DNA of 28,181 nucleotides from a virus: the IMG/VR virus record IMGVR_UViG_3300007609_000072, positions 1-28,181 of that record, one strand, 5' to 3'. Each line of letters begins with the position of its first letter. Position 1 is the stretch's first letter. The position numbers were made by a program, and so were the translations under genes. The notes below the pieces were generated by a model. It had not been told where the DNA came from. It searched no databases and was given only the letters and a program-made list of their open reading frames with translations. This document shows, in pieces, positions 7,325 through 23,020 of this stretch.

Positions 7325-7732
7325 TTAATCACTTAATCCAACAAAAAATGATGATGAAGTAAAGTATATACCTCCATTAGGTGCAGGATCATATAATTTG
7401 TTGCTACTAGTAGCAACTGTTATAATTCCACTTTGACTAACAGTTAATATATTAGCCCCAGCAAAATTTTTAATTAAAAAAATATCCGATGCATCAGAAT
7501 GTATCGTTGTTGACCCCAATGAATTTATTTTAAATAATTCAATACTAGCACTCGATAATAAAAATGTATAATTTGGATCTTGTACACTAGCTGTTACTGA
7601 ATTAAAATTTATTTGCGGTGGTGAAGGTATATCTGTTAATTTACTTCCATCGCCAATAAATGATCCGGTAAATGATCCAGTAATTCCATACGAAGCAGTC
7701 GGTAATTGTTTTATATTAAAAATTCTACTCAT
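7325..7732 (-). CDS. Small fibre-like structural protein
   Basis: I place the start at 7732, giving 135 residues and a TAATG overlap with the stop of the gp15-like gene, which suits translational coupling; an ATG three codons earlier (7741) is possible. The protein begins MSRIFNIKQLPTASYGITGS, followed by SFTGSFIGDGSKLTDIPS. The GSFxGxGSxLTxIP pattern is widespread in marine phage fibre-like proteins. The rest is beta-rich with Ser/Thr (STTIHSDASDIFLIKN, ILTVSQSGIITVAT) and ends in FTSSSFFVGLSD. It is probably a minor tail or fibre component made together with the tail terminator. Confidence 0.65.
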   Translation of the reverse strand: MSRIFNIKQLPTASYGITGSFTGSFIGDGSKLTDIPSPPQINFNSVTASVQDPNYTFLLSSASIELFKINSLGSTTIHSDASDIFLIKNFAGANILTVSQSGIITVATSSNKLYDPAPNGGIYFTSSSFFVGLSD

Positions 7733-8955
7733 TATAGCCATCTTCCATTAACAACAATAATAAAATTAGAATCTAATTGATATCCTAATGTATTAGTATC
7801 AAATATTATAGTTTGAAGAGATGTATTTGTCGGCGTCCATGTATACACATTTTTATCAATATATTGTCCATTTATATATACATCAAATTCATTTTTAGAT
7901 GCAACATCTGATGTTGTTGGATTAATTGCAGCAGCTGCATTTATATTAGCAGTAGTTAAATTTGTTACCGTTGCATATTGATCAGTTAAATTAACTAGAT
8001 AATTTAGTGTAGGTGCGTTAATAGATGTCGACGAGCCGCCGCTATTTGCTATAACAGTACCACCAGATAATATTTGTTGCGATACAGCAAGTATAGATGT
8101 TGGCACTTGTGTAGTTTCAAATAAATTAGAATCGACATCAATTACCGTATCAAATTTAACTTTTTTAATCGAATACATTTTTTTAAGTGTATTTCTTCTA
8201 AATTCCTGACCACTTAATAATGTAGCGTGCACTGTAATTGGAAGCGATGCTCTGACTAGACGGTCTTCTCCTACTGTGTTCACCGTTTCAAAATTTATTG
8301 ACCCATAAATACTCGTAAATTTATTGTCCTCATTTCCCCATGCAAATCTATTATATGGTAAGATTTGGTCTACTAAATCATTAAGTTGCGTAGTAAAATC
8401 ACACCACATTAACAATTCATATTCAATTGTTACGAATTTAGGAATATCAACTAGATATATTTTTTCTGATTCCGATGGTGTTGTGTCTGGCATCGGGAAT
8501 AACGAATCAGTATATCGATTACGTTTATTGTATTTAGATTTATAAATTATATTGTTTCCAGATTGTGGGTAATTGGTGGCAAGTCCCTTAAGATTGTCGC
8601 GTTCTTGTACATTATTACGTTTAATCATAACCAGTGGGGACTGAAGCATTCCTTTTTCGTCCCGTATATATCCCAATCGCTGCACATTATCCCATTTTTC
8701 GCCATTTGCAAATATAACTGGTACATTAATTAATTCTTGTTGAAATTTAATTTGTGGTTGTATTTCGTTGTCAATAAACCATTTCATTGCATAATCAATA
8801 TCATATACCGTTTGTTTCGGAGTGCGTATTACATCATCATCTCGGCGTGTTTGTTCAGATCGATTAAGTATACGATCTCCTTTTAAACTATCCGTGCGTT
8901 TAGGTGATGGTTTATTGGTTTTACGATCGATATTTTGTTTGTTATATCTCGGCAT
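7732..8955 (-). CDS. 15: Tail terminator / sheath stabiliser, gp15-like, with C-terminal extension
   Basis: This 407-residue protein aligns by eye with the T4 gp15 layout: a strand set INVPVIFANGEKWDNVQ (T4 VPITYAS), LVMIKRNNV, IEYELLMWCDFTTQLNDLV followed by DQILPYNRF (T4 IYELSIFTRY and EQILPYF), and RLVRASLPITVHATLLSG. T4 gp15 caps the tail tube and sheath and joins the head-neck complex. Position directly after gp13 and gp14 agrees. T4 gp15 has 272 residues; here the N-terminus has about 50 charged residues and the C-terminal approximately 110 residues form an extra beta-rich part ending FDVYINGQYIDKNVYTW and SNFIIVVNGRWL. The start overlaps the gp14 stop (TAATG), with GAGG six bases before it. 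Confidence 0.7.
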   Translation of the reverse strand: MPRYNKQNIDRKTNKPSPKRTDSLKGDRILNRSEQTRRDDDVIRTPKQTVYDIDYAMKWFIDNEIQPQIKFQQELINVPVIFANGEKWDNVQRLGYIRDEKGMLQSPLVMIKRNNVQERDNLKGLATNYPQSGNNIIYKSKYNKRNRYTDSLFPMPDTTPSESEKIYLVDIPKFVTIEYELLMWCDFTTQLNDLVDQILPYNRFAWGNEDNKFTSIYGSINFETVNTVGEDRLVRASLPITVHATLLSGQEFRRNTLKKMYSIKKVKFDTVIDVDSNLFETTQVPTSILAVSQQILSGGTVIANSGGSSTSINAPTLNYLVNLTDQYATVTNLTTANINAAAAINPTTSDVASKNEFDVYINGQYIDKNVYTWTPTNTSLQTIIFDTNTLGYQLDSNFIIVVNGRWL

Positions 8956-11798: not shown

Positions 11799-12467
11799 CT
11801 ATAATAATCGTTTTTTAACTTCTGTATATGTACTACATCCCCAAAATTCTTGATATTTTTTATATAATCGTTTATGTGTGATGCCGTATTCTCGTTTTAT
11901 TTGATCTTGTGATTTTTCTTTCAATAACTCTAATAATGAATCTGCTGTAAGTTCATTTAACCATCGTTCTGTGTCTGCATCTAAATATCGGGTGGATAAC
12001 CGCTGATTACGTTCTATATACCGACGTTCTCCTTCTACATTACCATATTTCGTCTGAAACCATTCGAGTGTGTAACGACCCTGTGCGGCGGTACTCATGT
12101 TCTGTTTTGTTTGTTCGGTCGGTACCCATGTTGGGTGTGTTTTTCTATTTTCTTTAATTTTTTGAATAAATTGATTGCGATTTGGATTATTCGTAATATT
12201 ATCACCGCCATAACCACCTTCACCGATATTATAGTACATATCTAATAATTGTGCATTAGTTATTTCAATCCAATGTCGTTCTCTTTCTGCCATATGGTCT
12301 TCTGAGTCACAATATTCGAGTATTGTTTTTATAAAATTTTCCTTGCCGTACTTTTTGATAGCTTGATTGAGTATTTTACCAGAGCCGAGATATTTAGGAT
12401 CATTATGTTTATCTTTACCAATATAACGCTTTCCGTTTATTTTATTTATTGTTTCATATATTACCAT
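11799..12467 (-). CDS. Free-standing GIY-YIG homing endonuclease
   Basis: This 222-residue protein has an N-terminal GIY-YIG nuclease domain: VIYETINKINGKRYIG at 2-17, YLGSG, the KKYGKENF segment carrying the usual catalytic-side residues, AERERHW with the metal-binding Glu, and YYNIGEGG with the closing Asn. The middle (PTEQTKQNMSTAAQGR) resembles a NUMOD3-type DNA-binding motif. The C-terminus (SQDQIKREYGITHKRLYKKY) looks like a helix-turn-helix. Such genes, like T4 seg genes, spread by cutting phage genomes that lack them. It sits alone between the major capsid gene's terminator and the phoH unit, with its own promoter-like motif, so it seems intact and non-disruptive. Confidence 0.88.
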   Translation of the reverse strand: MVIYETINKINGKRYIGKDKHNDPKYLGSGKILNQAIKKYGKENFIKTILEYCDSEDHMAERERHWIEITNAQLLDMYYNIGEGGYGGDNITNNPNRNQFIQKIKENRKTHPTWVPTEQTKQNMSTAAQGRYTLEWFQTKYGNVEGERRYIERNQRLSTRYLDADTERWLNELTADSLLELLKEKSQDQIKREYGITHKRLYKKYQEFWGCSTYTEVKKRLL

Positions 12468-12580: not shown

Positions 12581-14266
12581 TTAAAGAGTCTCTAAACCTT
12601 TAACATATACCTTCCCATAAAATTCCGGTCTAACTACCTTCTTAGCGTAACGAGTCATTACACCTTTACGTGGAGTAAAGTTAACTGGATCGTACACTAA
12701 TGGAGTCATGATCAATGGAACATATGGAGAGAATACTGCTCCCGTTTCAAGGAACTGTGCTCCACGGAATCCCATAAGGATGATGTTCTCTTTCATGTAT
12801 GGGTTCTTGTAAACTGTGTAACGATTATTAATCGCACCAATTTTTTGAACACCTGCAGCAAATTCCATTTTGCTTCCGTCTGTGTCTGCAGCAAATCCTG
12901 GGATAGACTCAAGAATAGTTGCAACTGCTGGACTTGTAACAAGGAAATTTGCTCCACCTCTTAACGTCTTTTGGTGAATTTTATTTGACACTTTTTGCAG
13001 TTTAGTTCCTAAAGTTTGGAACCATCCGCCTTGAGTGTTATAGAAACCGGTATTATCACTAACACCATTTCTAGTAAACCCGGTACCATTCCATACTTCA
13101 TTGTTTACTGCTGACCAATATTCAGTAGTTGGAGCAGCTGAAATTAACATATCAAGAATTTCCAAGTCAATTTCCATTGACACGTATTCAGAAAGCATTG
13201 AAGTTAATTCCGCTTCTGCATCGATGCTGTGGTAAGCGTTAAGGTCTTGTGCGAACTCAGGAGTCCAAACAGCTTTTAACTTACGTGTCTTAGCAACAAT
13301 TGGCTCTGACTGCATTTCAAGATTTAATTCCGGAATATCAATATCAGTTCCGTCATTAATACCAGTTCCGGCACTAGATCCTTTGAATGGATCTGCGTCT
13401 TCAAAGTCACCACGTGTTATGTCATCTGGTTGTTTGCTATAGTTAACATTCAACTCATTATTATCAATAGCCGTTTGTATGTCACCAGCTAATGATGCTG
13501 TTACTACAAATGAAGCAGTATAATTACTAGTAATACTTGTAAATGCTTGTTCTGGAATGATTTCCGTTGATCCAGAAATCAGTGTAAACGAACGAGCTGC
13601 ATATAAATCGGCATCTGTTGGTACTGGTGTTGTTAATACGAACCAATCGCTACTATTTACTGTATATGCACTGTCGAAGTTAACTGATGCAGATGGTACA
13701 GCTTCTGCTGTAGCACCAGAACCAGTAGATGCTCCTGCTGATATTGTAGTAGCGGAACCTGATACATTCTTGATAGAATATCCAAAACGACCTGCTCCAT
13801 AAAGTCCGCCAGATGGGTCATCTGATGTATTAGTAATACCAAATAAAGAATCAGATGATTCTGCGTTTCCAAATGGGTGTCCATTTGCTGATACCGGATC
13901 GGTGTTATCATCATCAAATCCTGGGCGATTTGTGCCGTATTTGAAATCTAAGTAAAATACTAGACCAGATGGTAAATTCATTGGCTGTACTGATACAAAT
14001 TCTTTTGCAGCAAATTCAGCAAAAATTCTTCTTACCAATGGAAGTGCTACACCAGCCCATTCTTCAGATCCTTCTGCAGTGCCAGTTTGTGAAGCTTCTT
14101 TTACTAATTGTCTTGCTTGATTTTCAAGCAACTGAGCCATTCCGGCTTGTTCGGTTTCATTACGAAGTCCTTCTAATAGACCCGTTCTTTGCCATTTTTG
14201 TACTAGAGGTTTTGCTGCAATTGTTTGATTTGGAGCTTTTGCCTCTAAAAGACTGTTTACATTCAT
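12581..14266 (-). CDS. 23: Major capsid protein, gp23-like
   Basis: This 561-residue protein forms the capsid shell (T4 gp23 has 521). The N-terminus is a helical, charged prepiece (MNVNSLLEAKAPNQT, QKWQRTGLLEGLRNE), followed by the conserved LPLVRRIFAEFAAKEFVSVQ and PMNLPSGLVFYLDFKYG, matching T4 MVRRAIPNLI and VQPMNSPTGQVF. gp21 cleavage is expected just before this block; TAE at 62-64 or SEE at 66-68 are candidate sites. Later signatures include KLKAVWTPEFAQDLNAYHSI (typical AxWTxExxQD), QKTLRGGANFLVTSPAVA and a final YGKVYVKGL. The gene has no Shine-Dalgarno sequence, only an A-rich leader, and follows gp22 by 31 nt, so both likely share one transcript ended by the terminator at 12526-12560. 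Confidence 0.95.
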   Translation of the reverse strand: MNVNSLLEAKAPNQTIAAKPLVQKWQRTGLLEGLRNETEQAGMAQLLENQARQLVKEASQTGTAEGSEEWAGVALPLVRRIFAEFAAKEFVSVQPMNLPSGLVFYLDFKYGTNRPGFDDDNTDPVSANGHPFGNAESSDSLFGITNTSDDPSGGLYGAGRFGYSIKNVSGSATTISAGASTGSGATAEAVPSASVNFDSAYTVNSSDWFVLTTPVPTDADLYAARSFTLISGSTEIIPEQAFTSITSNYTASFVVTASLAGDIQTAIDNNELNVNYSKQPDDITRGDFEDADPFKGSSAGTGINDGTDIDIPELNLEMQSEPIVAKTRKLKAVWTPEFAQDLNAYHSIDAEAELTSMLSEYVSMEIDLEILDMLISAAPTTEYWSAVNNEVWNGTGFTRNGVSDNTGFYNTQGGWFQTLGTKLQKVSNKIHQKTLRGGANFLVTSPAVATILESIPGFAADTDGSKMEFAAGVQKIGAINNRYTVYKNPYMKENIILMGFRGAQFLETGAVFSPYVPLIMTPLVYDPVNFTPRKGVMTRYAKKVVRPEFYGKVYVKGLETL

Positions 14267-14297: not shown

Positions 14298-15311
14298 TTA
14301 AATTAACCCTGCTAATTTTTTCCAACGATTTGCAAACTCAACACTTTCAGAAATAATTTCTTTTTTAGGTGCTGTGCTTGTAACAGGTTTTGAAGCATAA
14401 CCTTCTTTAACTATTCGTTTTTTAGATTTAGTAGGTCGTTTAAAACTTTCGCTCAATGTGCTAAATACTAATTTAACTTCTCGAGTGCTAGCAGCTCTGT
14501 CAAAATTTTCAATCACTTTCATTTTTTGTGATTCATTCAATTCGAAGTTACGGAATAATTTATTAGTAAATAGAAGTTTTGCATTTAAAAGATTAACTTC
14601 ATTGATAGTGTATTGTAGTTGTTTGATAACTGAATATGCTTCGTCTAGTTCTTCTTTCATTTTATATGAACCTTCATCCATTTCGTCATCCATTTCGTCA
14701 TCCATTTCAACTTCTTCTTCAGATAAAATTGATTCGATAATTGCATCGATATCTTCTTCTATCATACCATCGCCGTCGTCTCCTGCTGAATCTCGTACTT
14801 GTTCTTCAACATCTTCTTCTTCATACATACCTTCTTCTAACTCTTTAATAATTTCGTCAAGCTCTGCGTCTAATTCCGTATCCATTTCCGAATCATCCAT
14901 TTCCATGTCTGGTTCATCCATATCCATTTCCGAATCATTCATTTCCATGTCTGGTTCATCCATGTCCATTTCATTATTACCGCCTAGCTCACCTTCGATG
15001 TCATATGATCCATCCATGTCTAAATCTACGCCTACTCTAACTGCAGTAGGGTCGTCCATTTCCGAATCATCCATTTCCATGTCTGGTTCATCTAGATCCA
15101 TTTCTGGTTCTGTTGCTACATCTTCTTCATCAGCTGCCATTTCTAATTCAGCTTCTTCATCATCGAGTTGTTCAGATAGTTTTGCACCGAGCATACTTTC
15201 TAAACGTGATCCGAATGCTTCTTCTAACGCAATTTTAGCATTAGCAATTGCAGTTTCTTTAACTGCTTTAGCATCGGCAATTGCTTCTTTCAGCAAATCT
15301 GTTTTTGCCAT
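14298..15311 (-). CDS. 22: Prohead core scaffold protein, gp22-like, with acidic repeats
   Basis: This 337-residue protein is the likely internal scaffold on which gp23 assembles and which gp21 degrades (T4 gp22 has 269). The N-terminus is an Ala/Lys-rich helix (LLKEAIADAKAVKETAIANA). Residues about 50-210 are extremely acidic, with repeated DEPDMEMDDSEMD-type units. The C-terminal half is helical, with LLNAKLLFTNKLFRNFELNE, SQKMKVIENFDRA and the closing NRWKKLAGLI, a typical scaffold C-terminus in this phage group. It lies directly before gp23, as in T4. It is the only gene in the window with a strong Shine-Dalgarno sequence (AAGGAG, 9-nt spacing), and it has a leader of about 112 nt with two hairpins. 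Confidence 0.88.
   Translation of the reverse strand: MAKTDLLKEAIADAKAVKETAIANAKIALEEAFGSRLESMLGAKLSEQLDDEEAELEMAADEEDVATEPEMDLDEPDMEMDDSEMDDPTAVRVGVDLDMDGSYDIEGELGGNNEMDMDEPDMEMNDSEMDMDEPDMEMDDSEMDTELDAELDEIIKELEEGMYEEEDVEEQVRDSAGDDGDGMIEEDIDAIIESILSEEEVEMDDEMDDEMDEGSYKMKEELDEAYSVIKQLQYTINEVNLLNAKLLFTNKLFRNFELNESQKMKVIENFDRAASTREVKLVFSTLSESFKRPTKSKKRIVKEGYASKPVTSTAPKKEIISESVEFANRWKKLAGLI
14881..15093 (-). repeat. In-frame near-identical 40-base repeats in gp22-like gene
   Basis: Three near-identical copies of a unit of about 40 bases occur at 14881-14920, 14923-14962 and 15055-15093. Each encodes an acidic DEPDMEMDDSEMD-type segment. The high DNA identity suggests recent duplication and a site prone to length change. 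Confidence 0.85.
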
Positions 15312-15423
15312 AATTTGTTTCTCCTTAAATTTTTTTTTGTGGAAATAAGATTATTTGAAATCTTAATAGAATATTTTATAATTGTTTCTAGACGCTATAT
15401 AGGGGTGAATAGCGTATTCTAAT
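15312..15423 (-). promoter_or_regulatory. Structured leader of the scaffold gene
   Basis: Between the degenerate promoter-like motif and the gp22 start lies a leader of about 112 nt. On the sense strand it can form a 7-bp hairpin ACGCTAT/ATAGCGT (15415-15409 with 15398-15392, 10-nt loop) and a second 7-bp hairpin TAAGATT/AATCTTA (15365-15359 with 15352-15346, 6-nt loop). An A-rich stretch and AAGGAG follow. It is the longest leader in the window, which suggests RNA-level control. No known riboswitch class was recognised. Confidence 0.4.
15321..15326 (-). promoter_or_regulatory. Shine-Dalgarno sequence of the scaffold gene
   Basis: The sense strand reads AAGGAG, nine bases before the ATG at 15311. 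Other genes here start behind A-rich sequence; the nearest rivals are GAGG before the gp15-like gene, which overlaps coding sequence, and AGGA before a doubtful micro-ORF. Confidence 0.8.
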
Positions 15424-15453: not shown

Positions 15454-15483
15454 AAAAAAGCCCTAACTTTTTCTGCTAAGGCT
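15454..15483 (-). terminator. Intrinsic terminator after the 150-residue gene
   Basis: On the sense strand AGCCTTAGC (15483-15475) pairs with GTTAGGGCT (15467-15459), a 9-bp stem with two G-U pairs and loop AGAAAAA, followed by six T. It separates the unknown gene at 15575 from the gp22-gp23 unit. Confidence 0.85.
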
Positions 15484-15551
15484 CAATTCTAATAGATTTT
15501 TTAAATGTTAAATGTCATAGTTTCTATTATTTTATGACTCATTAGGAACTC

Positions 15552-15574: not shown

Positions 15575-16027
15575 TTAGTTTTTAAAATTTTGTCTATAAC
15601 TTAATTCTGCTCTTAAATCTTTTAATTCTCTAGCATTTTCATTTGAAAATTTTCCTTTCTCTAATTCTTCAATTCTAGCTATAAGTTCCTTCATTGCCAT
15701 TTCTTCAGGAGACTTTTTAATATATTTTTTAGTATGTAAATAATTAAATAGTTTAATAGCTGCAGCAGATTGAATTTTAGGTGATTCATCTGCAGTCATT
15801 CTAAGGTTTTTATACAATTGTTTTAATTCGTTATTATTACTGGCAGTAACATCATTATAAAAGTCACCTAATTCAGCAAGAATCATATCAGTCATGTTTT
15901 CACCTTTTAAAGATGTTACCATGATGGTCTCTACTGTTTCTATAAAATCTGAATTTGTTTCGATGTTTTCATTTAGATTCTTCGTGTTGAAACGCTTCAT
16001 GTTTTCTACTAAAATGTTCTTTTTCAT
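15575..16027 (-). CDS. Unknown helical protein between bS21 and scaffold genes
   Basis: The protein has 150 residues and starts MKKNILVENMKRFNTKNLNE. It looks entirely helical and polar, with acidic helices (FIETVETIMVTSLKG, ILAELGDFYNDVTASNNNEL), a segment SAAAIKLFNYLHTKKYIKK, and a coiled-coil C-terminus (ELIARIEELEKGKFSNENAR). The RFNTKNL-type start with NENIE resembles other proteins encoded around prohead core genes, so a core or internal head protein is possible. It forms a single-gene unit between two copies of a terminator-promoter module. A second in-frame ATG at codon 10 is an alternative start. Confidence 0.65.
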   Translation of the reverse strand: MKKNILVENMKRFNTKNLNENIETNSDFIETVETIMVTSLKGENMTDMILAELGDFYNDVTASNNNELKQLYKNLRMTADESPKIQSAAAIKLFNYLHTKKYIKKSPEEMAMKELIARIEELEKGKFSNENARELKDLRAELSYRQNFKN

Positions 16028-16125: not shown

Positions 16126-16153
16126 AAAAAGCCCTAACTTTTTCTGTTAGGGC
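16126..16153 (-). terminator. Intrinsic terminator after the bS21 gene
   Basis: An 8-bp perfect stem, GCCCTAAC (16153-16146) with GTTAGGGC (16138-16131), closes a 7-nt loop AGAAAAA and is followed by five T and a second T-rich run. Confidence 0.9.
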
Positions 16154-16181
16154 CAATATAGATGATTAGTTAATGTGTAAT

Positions 16182-16415
16182 TTATTGCTCCCGGCTTCGA
16201 ATCTGTTGTATGAATGCTGCCTTTGATTTTTCTGCTCGTTTAATAACACTAGGTTTAATAAATTCTTTTCGATCATATGTTTTTTGCAATATTCCTGATT
16301 TTTTTACTCGTCGCTTAAATTGTTTTAACGCATATTCAATATCCCGATCAACAACCCGGACACCTAATACATTTCCTGGCACTATAGTTTGATGTAATTT
16401 CTGTTTTTTATTCAT
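16182..16415 (-). CDS. rpsU: Phage-encoded ribosomal protein bS21
   Basis: This 77-residue, very basic protein is bS21 of the small ribosomal subunit, which acts near the mRNA exit and the 3' end of 16S rRNA. Seen: VRVVDRDIEYALKQFKRRVK (the bS21 helix with AL-x-FKR), KKSGILQKTYDRKEFIKPSV and KRAEKSKAAFIQQIRSRE. The FIKPSVxxRAExxKA block is typical of Bacteroidetes bS21 rather than E. coli. There is an N-terminal extension of about 14 residues. Aligned without gaps to my recollection of flavobacterial bS21, Phe68 falls where the host has Tyr54, the residue reported to help hold the anti-Shine-Dalgarno tail. The gene follows an unknown gene by 9 nt, inside the head-gene cluster, and ends in a strong terminator. 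It lacks a clear Shine-Dalgarno sequence of its own. Confidence 0.88.
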   Translation of the reverse strand: MNKKQKLHQTIVPGNVLGVRVVDRDIEYALKQFKRRVKKSGILQKTYDRKEFIKPSVIKRAEKSKAAFIQQIRSREQ

Positions 16416-16424
16416 GTAACTCGT

Positions 16425-16889
16425 TTATATGTTTCTATTTTTTTGTGGTTGTTCCTCTTGCATTACTTTGAAACGAAAATATTTTATTTCTGGCTTCTGT
16501 GAAAAATAACCTTGTAGTTGTTGAGATTCCTTTGCCGTATCTTCGCCTAATCGAAAATAAAAATATCCAGCTTTACCACTTTTTGATTTTACGTGTTTAA
16601 CTGGATATATTTTTTTCTTAGCTGCAAATTGTTTGATTTCTTTTGCTACATTTTCTGCCATAGCCGCATCACGAAGCATGTATTGAACTCCGCCGTTGTA
16701 GTCTGTAATGTTGTTGATGAGATCTGCTTCTTCTAATTCAGCTTCAGTTAGACCGGCATCGCTCATTGCATCCCCTAAATCTTTTATAGCTTGTGTTGTT
16801 TGTTCAATGTCTTCTGGTTTTGGTATTTTTGAATTATTCTGTTCCGTTAATCCAAAAAATTCCTTATATGTATTTCGTTTCTTGTTCAT
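16425..16889 (-). CDS. Unknown protein encoded just before bS21
   Basis: The protein has 154 residues and starts MNKKRNTYKEFFGLTEQNNS. The first half is acidic and helical (IEQTTQAIKDLGDAMSDAGL, TEAELEEADLINNI). The second half seems alpha/beta with conserved-looking basic and aromatic residues: DAAMAENVAKEIKQFAAKK, YPVKHVKSKSGKAGYFYFRL, and a final KYFRFKVMQEE. The basic strand-rich half could bind nucleic acid, but I recognise no family. It opens a two-gene unit with bS21 (9-nt gap), led by a motif 29 nt upstream, so a link with translation or with head assembly is equally possible. Confidence 0.65.
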   Translation of the reverse strand: MNKKRNTYKEFFGLTEQNNSKIPKPEDIEQTTQAIKDLGDAMSDAGLTEAELEEADLINNITDYNGGVQYMLRDAAMAENVAKEIKQFAAKKKIYPVKHVKSKSGKAGYFYFRLGEDTAKESQQLQGYFSQKPEIKYFRFKVMQEEQPQKNRNI

Positions 16890-17374: not shown

Positions 17375-18016
17375 TTATATTCTACACTTTCCATCTTCAC
17401 ATAAAATAGAAGTAATTATTTCATGCACATGATGATATTGACTTGGTTGATGTTGATGACCAGCTGATTCGAATTGATATTGTTTTTCATTTTTTGGTGC
17501 TATAAAAGCCCCGTGGGTTGATGGATTTGATACTACATCCCAACAAATTAATTCAAAATCTGGCTGAACTTCCATTATATTTTCATTGCGAAGTTCTTTA
17601 ACACTACCTAACCCTCGAGATGATATTCCTAAACGTATTCCTTCTTTAAATAATGATTTTAATATTTTACCAGATGGCGTATCTAAAACTTGTAAAGCTC
17701 CACATAAATCGTCGCCTTTCCACCAAATTTTTAAAATGTTATGTGATACATTATTTAAATTAACAACTTGTGATTCTGGATGATCTAATTCTCCTAAAGC
17801 TCTGTGCTGATGTATAAATTCTTTTTCATACCGTTTACATTCTCGCTCTAGTATATGTTTTGGATATACACGACCATTTTGGTTTTTAGCTCCAGCTCGC
17901 TGAAGAATGCCTTCAACTATAAATGACCCATCAACACCATATATATTAGCAGATGATTCATTTAATATATTTAATGGCGTAAATGGTATAAAATCTTGTA
18001 TAAGTTGTTTTGTCAT
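17375..18016 (-). CDS. 21: Prohead core protease, gp21-like
   Basis: This 213-residue serine protease of the herpesvirus-type assemblin fold matures the prohead by cutting scaffold and capsid proteins (T4 gp21 has 212). Seen: GVDGSFIVEGILQRAGAKNQ followed by NGRVYPKHIL, the catalytic His in GELDHPES (His79), the nucleophile in LGISSRGLGS (Ser132 or Ser133) and an ELICWDVVSNPS strand near 155-166 that completes the site. The C-terminal tail after APKNEKQ is His- and Gln-rich (SAGHQHQPSQYHHVHE), which is unusual and might bind metal. It starts 4 nt after the preceding stop and appears translationally coupled to it. Confidence 0.93.
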   Translation of the reverse strand: MTKQLIQDFIPFTPLNILNESSANIYGVDGSFIVEGILQRAGAKNQNGRVYPKHILERECKRYEKEFIHQHRALGELDHPESQVVNLNNVSHNILKIWWKGDDLCGALQVLDTPSGKILKSLFKEGIRLGISSRGLGSVKELRNENIMEVQPDFELICWDVVSNPSTHGAFIAPKNEKQYQFESAGHQHQPSQYHHVHEIITSILCEDGKCRI

Positions 18017-19554: not shown

Positions 19555-21387
19555 TTATAAAATATTAGTTTCATCTAACAATGTGCCGTGATCTTTATCT
19601 TGTTTAGTTGTCTCATACAACATTTGATTTGCTATTTTTTTATTATTAATCTTTTTTAATACATCAATATTTTCTTTGCGCATATTATATGGAGAACTGA
19701 CACTAGCTCGTCTACTTCCTCTAGAATCAGGCTGAAATGTAGTTTTTTGATTTTTTGAATCTACATGTTGTTTGATTTGTTTAATGCCTAGTGGATCCCA
19801 TCCGAATGCGTTTTTATGTGTTCCAGATTTAGGTCCTTCGGGTGGTCTTCCGCCTTTATCATCGCTATCTGATGACATATGCATCGAAGCTAAATCATGT
19901 GGAGTTCCATATGATACGCCTGTTAATGTAGGATCATTTCCTTCTTGTTCGATTTGATTCTGTCTAAATCTTAGTTTTAAATCTTCAACTACATCATTGC
20001 GCTCTTGCAACCATTGTTCTTCTGACATATTAAATATATATTCATATATATAACGATCTGACACTAGTTTACTATCTTTCATTGAAGTTGCAAGTTGAAT
20101 TTTTTCATTCATTAATGCAACTTTTTGTTGATCATATATAATTGATGGAGCTGTTAATTCCAATTCAAAATTAATTAAATCTTCATTTTCATATCCTTGT
20201 GTATATAAATGAACTATTGCTATTTTTGATAATTCTGATTGAATAATTTTTTGAATTCGTTCGATGGTTCTAGCAAATCTAATATCCATTGATGCCAATG
20301 TAGATTTTCCTTCTACACCCTCATCATATCCTAGGAATGGCTTAGGTACTTTTAATGCAGCCATCATTTTATGTTTAACATATTCAATATCGTCAATTCC
20401 AGTAAATTCCATGCCTGGCAATGTAGCAATTTCGGTAGAAGAATTTCCTCCACGAACTGGTAAAAAGAAATCTTCTAACATGTTGTTAAGATTAAATTTT
20501 AAATTATAATTACCGGTTTTTTGATCAACATGTGGAACTTTTTTCATTTTGTTAATCATTTGTTCCATAAATGAATCAACTTCATTTGGTGGAATATTAC
20601 CAATGTCAACTTTAAATATTCGTTTTTCTGGAGCTCGCATTACTCGATGAATAAGCATTGCATCTTCTAACATAGTTAATTTTTGGAATTCTGTTCTAGC
20701 TCCTTCTAACATAGATCTACCATATGGCAGAAAATTTGAATCTGAAATTAATCTAAAATGAGCAATTTCAAAAACGTCGTATTTTTCTTCTGGATTTGAT
20801 ACATGATGAAATTCAATTTCATATTCTCCTGTATCTTCTCGGAATTCTTCCCATCTCTCCATTTCGTAACTAGAAAATGGTCGCGCATTAACAATGCCAA
20901 GCTCGTCTGCGATATCCAATTTTAAAAAGAAATCTCCATATTTACACATATTACGAATCCACGGCCATAAATTAAATTCTATATTTAATATATCATAAAA
21001 TAAATTATTAAGTATCTTATGAATTCGAGTATCTTCAGTTTTAATAGTTAAAATCTCGCCGAATTGATTGGCTAATGTAGATTCATCAGCATATATATCT
21101 AATGCCGAGCTAATTATCGGATCTTTATCCATCATTTCGAAATCAGTATATAACTGCATTCGATTCTGGTGCATGTAATAATTTGAATCATATCCACCCA
21201 TTCCTCCTACGGAGTGGCGGTTCGTCCCATGCATTCTTGTATATCTATCAGCAATTTTGCTTTGTGCTAAATTACCAGATGACTGTAATTTATTTGTGTC
21301 AATTACTCGTAATTTGTTTTTGCCATAGGCTCTAACAACAACATTTGTTTGAAATAAATTACGTAATCTTCTTCTTAATGTAGCCAT
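19555..21387 (-). CDS. 20: Portal vertex protein, gp20-like
   Basis: This 610-residue protein forms the dodecameric ring through which DNA enters the head (T4 gp20 has 524). Diagnostic segments are MMDKDPIISSALDIYADEST (85-104), WPWIRNMCKYGDFFLKLDI, the conserved RAPEKRIFKVDIGNIP (251-266), MLEDFFLPVRGGNSSTEI (303-320) with ATLPG behind it, and KVPKPFLGYDEG. The C-terminus beyond about residue 500 is polar and low in order (SDSDDKGGRPPEGPKSGTHK), an extension relative to T4. The gene follows terminase directly, with a motif 16 nt upstream. No Shine-Dalgarno sequence. Confidence 0.95.
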   Translation of the reverse strand: MATLRRRLRNLFQTNVVVRAYGKNKLRVIDTNKLQSSGNLAQSKIADRYTRMHGTNRHSVGGMGGYDSNYYMHQNRMQLYTDFEMMDKDPIISSALDIYADESTLANQFGEILTIKTEDTRIHKILNNLFYDILNIEFNLWPWIRNMCKYGDFFLKLDIADELGIVNARPFSSYEMERWEEFREDTGEYEIEFHHVSNPEEKYDVFEIAHFRLISDSNFLPYGRSMLEGARTEFQKLTMLEDAMLIHRVMRAPEKRIFKVDIGNIPPNEVDSFMEQMINKMKKVPHVDQKTGNYNLKFNLNNMLEDFFLPVRGGNSSTEIATLPGMEFTGIDDIEYVKHKMMAALKVPKPFLGYDEGVEGKSTLASMDIRFARTIERIQKIIQSELSKIAIVHLYTQGYENEDLINFELELTAPSIIYDQQKVALMNEKIQLATSMKDSKLVSDRYIYEYIFNMSEEQWLQERNDVVEDLKLRFRQNQIEQEGNDPTLTGVSYGTPHDLASMHMSSDSDDKGGRPPEGPKSGTHKNAFGWDPLGIKQIKQHVDSKNQKTTFQPDSRGSRRASVSSPYNMRKENIDVLKKINNKKIANQMLYETTKQDKDHGTLLDETNIL

Positions 21388-21439: not shown

Positions 21440-23020
21440 TCAAATTAACCACGTTAAATCCTCATCGCCATACCCAGTATTCCAATTCCACCCCGTATCT
21501 GTATTTTGTCGATTATTTGTAGAAATTACTCCGCTGGTTTTAGTAAAGTGCGATAATGACTTTTTATGAAGTTCGATACCATGTTGCCTTAGTTTTAATG
21601 AAGTATCTCGTAACCACAATCCAATAGCATATGCCATTACAAGGTCATCATTATATCCTGATTGAGCTTGGGCTTTTCCATTTAACCAAATAAATACAAA
21701 TAATTCTTGTATAAGCCGTTTACTTCGAATAATAGGAGTTCCTTCGCGCATATACATTTCCAACGCCGAAATCATTAATGGTCTTGTTTTTGATGTCGTC
21801 GAAACCCCCGGTACCATCTGTGTTTTGTCTTTGACGTCATATCCTTTTGTGAGTTGTACGTCTAAATCTACATAGCCATCATCTTTATATGTATAAAATA
21901 AATTTTCATATCCTTTATCTAATAATGGTTGAATTGCAGCCCATCCGATATTTGCATTTTCTACTGCTAGCAATGCATTATTCCATTCAGTAGCAACACT
22001 ATATAACATATTTCCAAAATCTTTAGGAGGTATTTTTCCTTTATATTCTGCTACTTGTGCTATATTCTGTATATCAATCACATGGAATGTTGACCAGTCA
22101 GCTCCATCGCCCCTTGCAACGTCTGCTACTACTACATAATTTCTAGAATAATCTGGATATTCCCATATCCAATATGCATTGTCATAACCTCGTCTTTCTA
22201 TAGGATCCTCACATTTTTCTTCATATCGTTGTAATATAGATCCATCTACAACTGTGTGTCCGGATGATATGAAGTCACAATCACATTCTTGAGCTGCGCC
22301 TTTTTCTCCTAATAACTGTGTCTGTGCATCTCTCCAGGCCTGATCTCGTTCTGGATGTACAGTCCAATGTAATTTAATATTATTCCATTGTGTTTTAGGA
22401 TTTGTTTGGCCATCAACCCACGTCTGGTGAAACCAATTACCAATACCATTTGGAGTTGACAATACAATAGCGCCACCACCAGTTGACAATGTTGCTTGGG
22501 ATGCTATCCATATTTCTTCAATATTTCTAATAAATGCAGCTTCATCGACAATTAACAATGATAATGCTTCCGATCGGGCTCCTGTATTAGATGAAGAAAT
22601 TGCTTTGATTTGCGATCCATTTTTAAATTTTAATGAAAGTTTATTATCAGCTTCAATAGTACCTTTTAACCAACTAGGTAAATTGTCATGCATTACTCTT
22701 ACTTTAGTAACTAAATTTTTTGCAACTTCTTGTGTTGTTGCTATAACTAAAACATTAAAATCTTCATTAAACAACATATTCCATAAAGCAAACCCAGCCG
22801 ATAACGTAGATATACCTAATTGCCTAGATTTTAATATTACATTGTAACGATTATTTTTTAAGTCATCCAATGAATTTTCTTGAAAATCATATAAATTAAA
22901 TTTAATCTTTCCTCTTTTAGGATGTTGAATATAACAATAATTACGCATGAAAAATATTGGATCTGCAGAACATTTAATATATTGATCGCGTATTATAGAT
23001 TTTAAATCTTTTTTATCCAT
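21440..23020 (-). CDS. 17: Terminase large subunit, gp17-like
   Basis: This 526-residue motor ATPase and nuclease packages DNA into the prohead (T4 gp17 has 610). The ATPase half has a deviant Walker A SRQLGIST (65-72, with Ile where T4 has Lys, and Arg66 able to act instead), Walker B LLIVDEAAF (155-163) with Glu160, and the coupling motif LSTPNG (187-192). The RNase H-like nuclease half has Asp300 in VVVADVARGDGADWS, Glu354 in LLAVENANIGW and Asp458/Asp459 in SGYNDDLVMAYA, the expected acidic triad. It lacks the N-terminal extension of T4 gp17. It starts 20 nt after a small membrane protein gene. No small terminase was recognised nearby. Confidence 0.95.
   Translation of the reverse strand: MDKKDLKSIIRDQYIKCSADPIFFMRNYCYIQHPKRGKIKFNLYDFQENSLDDLKNNRYNVILKSRQLGISTLSAGFALWNMLFNEDFNVLVIATTQEVAKNLVTKVRVMHDNLPSWLKGTIEADNKLSLKFKNGSQIKAISSSNTGARSEALSLLIVDEAAFIRNIEEIWIASQATLSTGGGAIVLSTPNGIGNWFHQTWVDGQTNPKTQWNNIKLHWTVHPERDQAWRDAQTQLLGEKGAAQECDCDFISSGHTVVDGSILQRYEEKCEDPIERRGYDNAYWIWEYPDYSRNYVVVADVARGDGADWSTFHVIDIQNIAQVAEYKGKIPPKDFGNMLYSVATEWNNALLAVENANIGWAAIQPLLDKGYENLFYTYKDDGYVDLDVQLTKGYDVKDKTQMVPGVSTTSKTRPLMISALEMYMREGTPIIRSKRLIQELFVFIWLNGKAQAQSGYNDDLVMAYAIGLWLRDTSLKLRQHGIELHKKSLSHFTKTSGVISTNNRQNTDTGWNWNTGYGDEDLTWLI

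Follow-up and report, generated by a model that had tools for sequence, protein, structure and literature searches.

Within the analysed stretch of 28,181 nucleotides (the window: positions 1 to 28,181 of IMG/VR virus record IMGVR_UViG_3300007609_000072), we found a complete gene for a ribosomal protein bS21 of the Bacteroidia type, enclosed by the capsid genes and carrying an N-terminal extension shared with a clade of related phages. The extended proteins apparently form a previously undescribed variant of phage bS21. We consider it reasonably probable that the gene encodes a functional bS21, which would be made together with the virion proteins, would probably compete with the host bS21 for the 30S platform and would thereby yield ribosomes adapted to phage mRNAs. 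This explanation is favored by the match to PF01165, the Bacteroidia-type C-terminus, an aromatic residue at position 54 (which in the sampled hosts goes with genes devoid of Shine-Dalgarno (SD) sequences), purifying selection, kinship to the Flavobacterium phage immuto and an SD-less leader, as well as by published findings on phage bS21 (late expression along with capsid genes, PMC9723584; entry into E. coli ribosomes, PMC6375957) and on F. johnsoniae (rpsU autoregulation and the effects of Y54A, PMC9976891). Against it stand the failure to find an extended bS21 among the searched genomes of Bacteroidota and the decrease of in vitro translation to about 5% in E. coli ribosomes containing a viral bS21 (PMC6375957).

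The bS21 gene and its landmarks are located as follows.
16182..16415, minus strand: bS21 (rpsU-like) coding sequence, 77 aa, with F. johnsoniae bS21 as best PDB match
16377..16415, minus strand: N-terminal extension, residues 1-13 (MNKKQKLHQTIVP), ahead of the canonical N-terminal strand
16245..16262, minus strand: FIKPSV block, residues 52-57, common to Bacteroidia bS21
16212..16214, minus strand: Phe68 codon, corresponding to Tyr54 of F. johnsoniae by ungapped alignment
16416..16437, minus strand: bS21 leader, without SD

The open reading frame is intact and matches Ribosomal_S21 (PF01165) with an E value of 5.2e-11 and a score of 42.5 bits, the curated cut-off being 27, in agreement with the initial annotation, which had called a complete bS21. 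Among solved structures, bS21 of F. johnsoniae (7jil_z of PDB 7JIL) is the best homologue, and the FIKPSV block, described earlier as Bacteroidetes-type, is indeed found also in Bacteroidia bS21, including that of F. johnsoniae. The two proteins align without gaps at an offset of +14, which places Phe68 opposite Tyr54 (KAAFIQ/KAAYIQ) and bears out the assignment of Phe to the position contacting the anti-Shine-Dalgarno (ASD). The mark of the Bacteroidia-type, ASD-sequestering bS21, an aromatic residue at position 54, is thus present in the window. A Foldseek search with the AF2 model returned just weak matches, to mitoribosomal small-subunit chains.

The N-terminal extension that had been claimed for this protein is real. 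An extension of about 13 residues, M[NS]KKQKQHQxIVPGNxLAV or a close variant, precedes the canonical N-terminal strand in 58 further IMG/VR contigs, and the window protein fits the clade motif M[NS]KKQKxHQxIVPGN. Both parts of the protein are under purifying selection, the extension evolving more slowly than the core (pN/pS of 0.28 and 0.43, respectively). The AF2 model predicts a helix at residues 3-10 and a strand at 15-19 (pLDDT 81-88). A tblastn search of 396 Flavobacteriales-order genomes with an extended bS21 produced essentially core matches alone, the best of them starting from residue 25-27, and a phylum-wide Bacteroidota search at an E value of 1e-9 (395 genomes, partly overlapping the 396) produced no extended bS21. 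No description of a phage-encoded bS21 with an N-terminal extension was found in the literature searched. The N-terminal helix of F. johnsoniae bS21 covers the ASD at the would-be mRNA site (PMC9723584); the extension is therefore well placed to influence initiation, should it have such an effect. Judged from sequence, the trait that sets the clade apart would be this basic extension, predicted to lie near the mRNA and the ASD helix, rather than the Phe. At the base of the clade are four loci (L454, L467, L469 and L470) in which position 54 is Tyr and the extensions are divergent (NKKHLAS, NKKQKQFES, NKKHKIWQ).

A T4-like cluster of large terminase (TerL), portal, protease, scaffold and major capsid protein (MCP) genes encloses bS21, all on the same strand.
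21440..23020, minus strand: large terminase (phrog_2, 161 bits)
19555..21387, minus strand: portal gp20 (PF07230, 230.8 bits)
17375..18016, minus strand: prohead protease gp21 (PF03420, 111.5 bits)
16130..16154, minus strand: intrinsic terminator hairpin directly 3' of bS21 (GGCCCTAAC-AGAAAAA-GTTAGGGCT-TTTT)
15575..16027, minus strand: 150-aa ORF without a PHROG, between bS21 and scaffold
15458..15484, minus strand: second terminator copy, before the scaffold gene
15321..15326, minus strand: AAGGAG, the SD of the scaffold gene, dG -8.2
14298..15311, minus strand: scaffold (gp22-like) gene
12581..14266, minus strand: MCP gp23 (PF07068, 254.5 bits)

From the protease onwards, the order is protease, a 155-aa ORF, a 154-aa ORF, bS21, terminator, the 150-aa ORF, terminator, scaffold and MCP. 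Thus, bS21 does lie inside the capsid cluster, but it adjoins neither the protease nor the scaffold gene, between which the initial annotation had put it: two ORFs separate it from the former, and one ORF and two terminator hairpins from the latter. The name scaffold gp22 is justified by synteny and by homology to the equivalent in immuto, but not by any Pfam or PHROGs match. Since no other gene lies between bS21 and an intrinsic terminator, bS21 ends the transcription unit that begins upstream and is not by default on one transcript with the scaffold and MCP genes. About 16 of the 29 non-redundant loci of the extended clade also have this hairpin after bS21, and their stems differ by compensatory changes, for example GCCCTAAC/GTTAGGGC and GTCCTAGC/GTTAGGAC. 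The 150-aa ORF is flanked by two 40-nt terminator repeats of 83% identity, and there is no gene at this place in the nearest relative, L003; the ORF appears to have been inserted through recombination between the terminators. Directly downstream of the MCP gene, the window contains a homing endonuclease gene (phrog_314, 11799-12467). The motif TATTTATA(T), in sense orientation, shows strong enrichment ahead of many late genes in the window and in L359-L378 (in G616, 24 occurrences versus 4 antisense), as well as in immuto, and is a candidate late promoter differing from the T4 sequence TATAAATA.

The leader of the window bS21 pairs with the 16S tail at -2.5 kcal/mol, and among 25 non-redundant extended-clade bS21 leaders none has an SD motif. 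The pairing energies of bS21 leaders in this clade have a median of -2.1 kcal/mol and never fall below -4.6. The corresponding median for rpsU in Flavobacterium hosts is -22.1 kcal/mol. In F. johnsoniae, rpsU is autoregulated via its strong SD (PMC9976891), a trait that is absent from the window. The phage leader is compatible with an escape from autoregulation but does not prove it. It need not signal escape at all, because many marine Flavobacteriales rpsU genes are likewise without a strong SD: just 28% of rpsU leaders fall below -10 kcal/mol in the Flavobacteriales sample, which is biased to phage-like sequences. The idea that the SD-less phage gene represents a unique escape is weakened by these hosts. 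In the explanation that we prefer, the phage bS21 mRNA would be translatable by SD-blind host ribosomes and would not be subject to the autoregulation that acts through the SD in many host rpsU genes.

To measure SD use, the pairing energy between the 16S tail and the region 20 to 3 nt upstream was calculated for each predicted gene and the value for shuffled leaders was subtracted; the first ATG was taken as the start codon throughout, a choice that makes the SD signal less sharp in every set. In the extended clade, with the window and L002 left out, the dG difference over 704 genes was -0.83 ± 0.07, and SD motifs peaked sharply at -14 to -9. No SD peak was seen in phages with unextended bS21 (-0.03 ± 0.08), in immuto (+0.36 ± 0.11) or in Flavobacterium (-0.14 ± 0.08). 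The difference for T4 was -2.02 ± 0.29, and the SD frequency in extended-clade contigs is T4-like, whereas their own bS21 gene is never SD-led. Among host loci, those with Y54 avoid SDs (+0.46 ± 0.13) and those with R54 make modest use of them (-0.58 ± 0.24). The extended phages are therefore odd in combining a Bacteroidia-like aromatic bS21 with SD-led genes. The window departs from its clade in this trait, as the 30 genes of the window and L002 show no SD enrichment as a set (-0.10 ± 0.31 versus -0.83 ± 0.07) and the scaffold gene alone has a strong SD in the window.

Within the extended clade, SDs precede 90% of scaffold genes, 79% of ad2-like genes, 71% of protease genes and 64% of MCP genes, as opposed to none of the bS21 (0/25, non-redundant), portal (0/15) and TerL (0/16) genes. 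The scaffold leader ATTTAAGGAGAAA is conserved in the clade, and a weaker conserved GAGGA lies upstream of the window gene 7732-8955. A specific tie between the scaffold SD and the extended bS21 is weakened by the retention of ATTTAAGGAG at this place in some phages with no bS21, and a restriction of SD use to late genes was rejected, replication genes in G617 carrying SDs too. A run of small genes in L362 (60-74 kb of G616) has a common leader, TTTAAAAAGAGAGAAA, possibly an early-gene element that could base-pair to UUUCU at the end of the 16S tail.

The nearest cultured relative is the Flavobacterium phage immuto (NC_055915), with an MCP identity of 54-58%. Long extended-clade contigs share 26-58 genes with it, and phages with unextended bS21 share 13-15. 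From this gene sharing a Bacteroidota host is likely, although not certain, because other phages of the same capsid type have a non-aromatic bS21. The search of Flavobacteriales DNA gave no usable link to a host. One Flavobacteriales-order bin, G353 (L385-L390), contains related phage DNA, but was rejected as host evidence since its five gp23 contigs are of at least two kinds, and the bin is probably mixed with viral DNA. Bacteroidota-type promoters (TTTG-N-TAnnTTTG) are unenriched in extended-clade contigs, but they are missing in immuto too and are hence uninformative as a host marker. An MCP tree built from 127 loci groups the phages with neither bS21 nor SD use (46 rows, the immuto clade) in a single supported clade, the extended phages in a second (20 rows) and the phages with non-aromatic bS21 in a third, with four loci of related divergent extension near the base. 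By parsimony on this tree, bS21 and SD use are ancestral and were lost together once. The association between extension and SD use consequently rests on essentially one evolutionary event and cannot show causation; the independent-pairs test had one pair alone and no statistical power. Two further observations concern the same capsid-cluster place: a large group of T4-like phages (L471-L549) has there a non-aromatic (Leu54-type), SD-led bS21, and Microcystis phage Mel-JY01 (L083, 8184-8411; isolate listed for Microcystis elabens) has a bS21 with a non-aromatic C-terminus, together with SD use.

The initial annotation had proposed that the exchange of Tyr for Phe itself alters access to the ASD and selects late mRNAs, which we find highly improbable. 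Phe was found at position 54 in none of 253 Bacteroidota host ORFs (180 Tyr, 67 Arg, 4 His, 1 Lys and 1 truncated; the count includes a few genomes twice, and the order-level sample was in part picked for likeness to the phage protein), but it is the majority state in the 58 IMG/VR contigs of the window's clade (38 Phe, 18 Tyr and 2 truncated), where position 54 is strictly aromatic in all untruncated extended proteins. On a scaffold-protein tree, parsimony requires at least four changes for Phe at this position, with starred branches leaving a single origin possible. Members with F54 and Y54 use SDs equally, their leaders pairing at -4.46 versus -3.21 when shuffled and at -4.53 versus -3.51, respectively. 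Because F and Y alternate in the clade with equal SD use, the ring is kept and the window genes are not SD-led, a functional change through Phe is unsupported. In F. johnsoniae, Tyr54 stacks on A1534 (McNutt et al., 2023; PMC9976891), and it is removal of the ring (Y54A) or deletion of the C-terminus that increases SD-led translation (PMC9976891). We read Phe68 as a conservative exchange that would still let an aromatic ring stack on A1534 in the 16S tail, and not as a release switch. Replacement of the host protein is plausible for a Bacteroidia-type bS21 (PMC9723584), with a precedent for entry into ribosomes (PMC6375957), even though Phe is discounted as the cause of altered ASD access. It is also very unlikely, in our judgment, that bS21 has a non-ribosomal or virion role, packaged or acting as an RNA-binding protein in head assembly; its position in the capsid cluster and the published suggestion of virion delivery as a possibility (PMC9723584) point that way, but its ribosome-facing core and aromatic position 54 are conserved.

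That selected late mRNAs are favored fits the wider clade, where the shared trait is the extension, better than it fits the window. The extended bS21 might free or reposition the sequestered ASD, so that the SD-led scaffold, protease and MCP mRNAs would be favored after host ribosomes have translated the SD-less bS21 mRNA. The SD peak confined to the extended clade in the comparison with unextended-bS21 phages, immuto and Flavobacterium is consistent with this possibility, as are the contrast between these capsid genes and bS21, the SD on the bS21 gene itself in the sister group with non-aromatic bS21 (mean dG -7.9) and the preference for SDs of F. johnsoniae ribosomes that have lost bS21 or its C-terminus (PMC9976891). 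We nevertheless rate it as rather unlikely, given that the SD-led replication genes of G617 (ssb, recA, exo) are expected to be translated ahead of the late bS21, that portal and TerL are SD-less as well, that the window has the extension and yet a single strong SD, and that the phylogenetic association is a single event. It is unlikely, too, that the extended bS21 makes ASD-sequestering Bacteroidia ribosomes SD-responsive and so provides the phages with their own initiation code for capsid mRNAs, retained in the window phage for the scaffold gene alone; that it renders ASD-blind ribosomes SD-competent is put forward as a testable hypothesis and not as a result. Quite possibly, though on balance doubtfully, SD use instead tracks the host: hosts of extended-bS21 phages would already have an accessible ASD, SD use and bS21 would be ancestral, the immuto clade would have lost both on entering SD-blind hosts, and the window lineage would be losing its SDs likewise. 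The single clade of phages without bS21 and SD use agrees with this, since nearly all bS21 phages, including the non-aromatic ones, use SDs, the window being a clear exception. It is, however, at odds with the aromatic position 54 of the extended proteins, which among the 253 host ORFs is of the Y/H type alone, whose sampled loci avoid SDs, and with the gene sharing that makes a Flavobacterium phage the nearest cultured kin.

Phage bS21 genes were already known, as the initial annotation had noted for marine phages. They have been described from Bacteroidetes phages (PMC9723584) and a pelagiphage (PMC6375957), and the central idea of the initial annotation is mostly in print. Chen et al. (2022; PMC9723584) described bS21 in the TerL-portal-protease-MCP region of Bacteroidetes phages, with the same type of core and with late expression alongside the capsid genes, and proposed ribosome replacement, as we propose for the window phage; position 54 is always aromatic in those phages (Tyr in 54 of 61 phage sequences), and the whole set includes a few sequences with His and a single one with Phe. 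Their bS21 genes lie on the strand opposite to the structural genes, as in G622 and G623, whereas in the window bS21 and the structural genes share a strand; the contigs of the opposite-strand kind seen here are SD-less and have no extension. F. johnsoniae bS21 resembles the window protein in its core, FIKPSV block and aromatic position 54, but has Tyr, no extension and a strong autoregulatory SD (PDB 7JIL; PMC9976891). Immuto shares with the window the capsid gene order, an MCP 54% identical and the candidate TATTTATA promoter motif, but it has no detected bS21 and no SD use. The bS21 of pelagiphage HTVC008M is also phage-encoded, and its entry into E. coli ribosomes has been demonstrated (Mizuno et al., 2019; PMC6375957); by its published origin it is of alphaproteobacterial type, in contrast to the Bacteroidia-type protein of the window.

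Ribosomal proteins are common in phages and their function there is unproven. The interest of the present case lies in the apparently undescribed extended bS21 variant and in its association with SD use. Comparing SD use between related phages that have a given kind of bS21 and those that lack it offers a direct test of whether phage bS21 alters mRNA choice, and the sequences named here, together with the existing F. johnsoniae reporter system, make the idea of specialized ribosomes testable.
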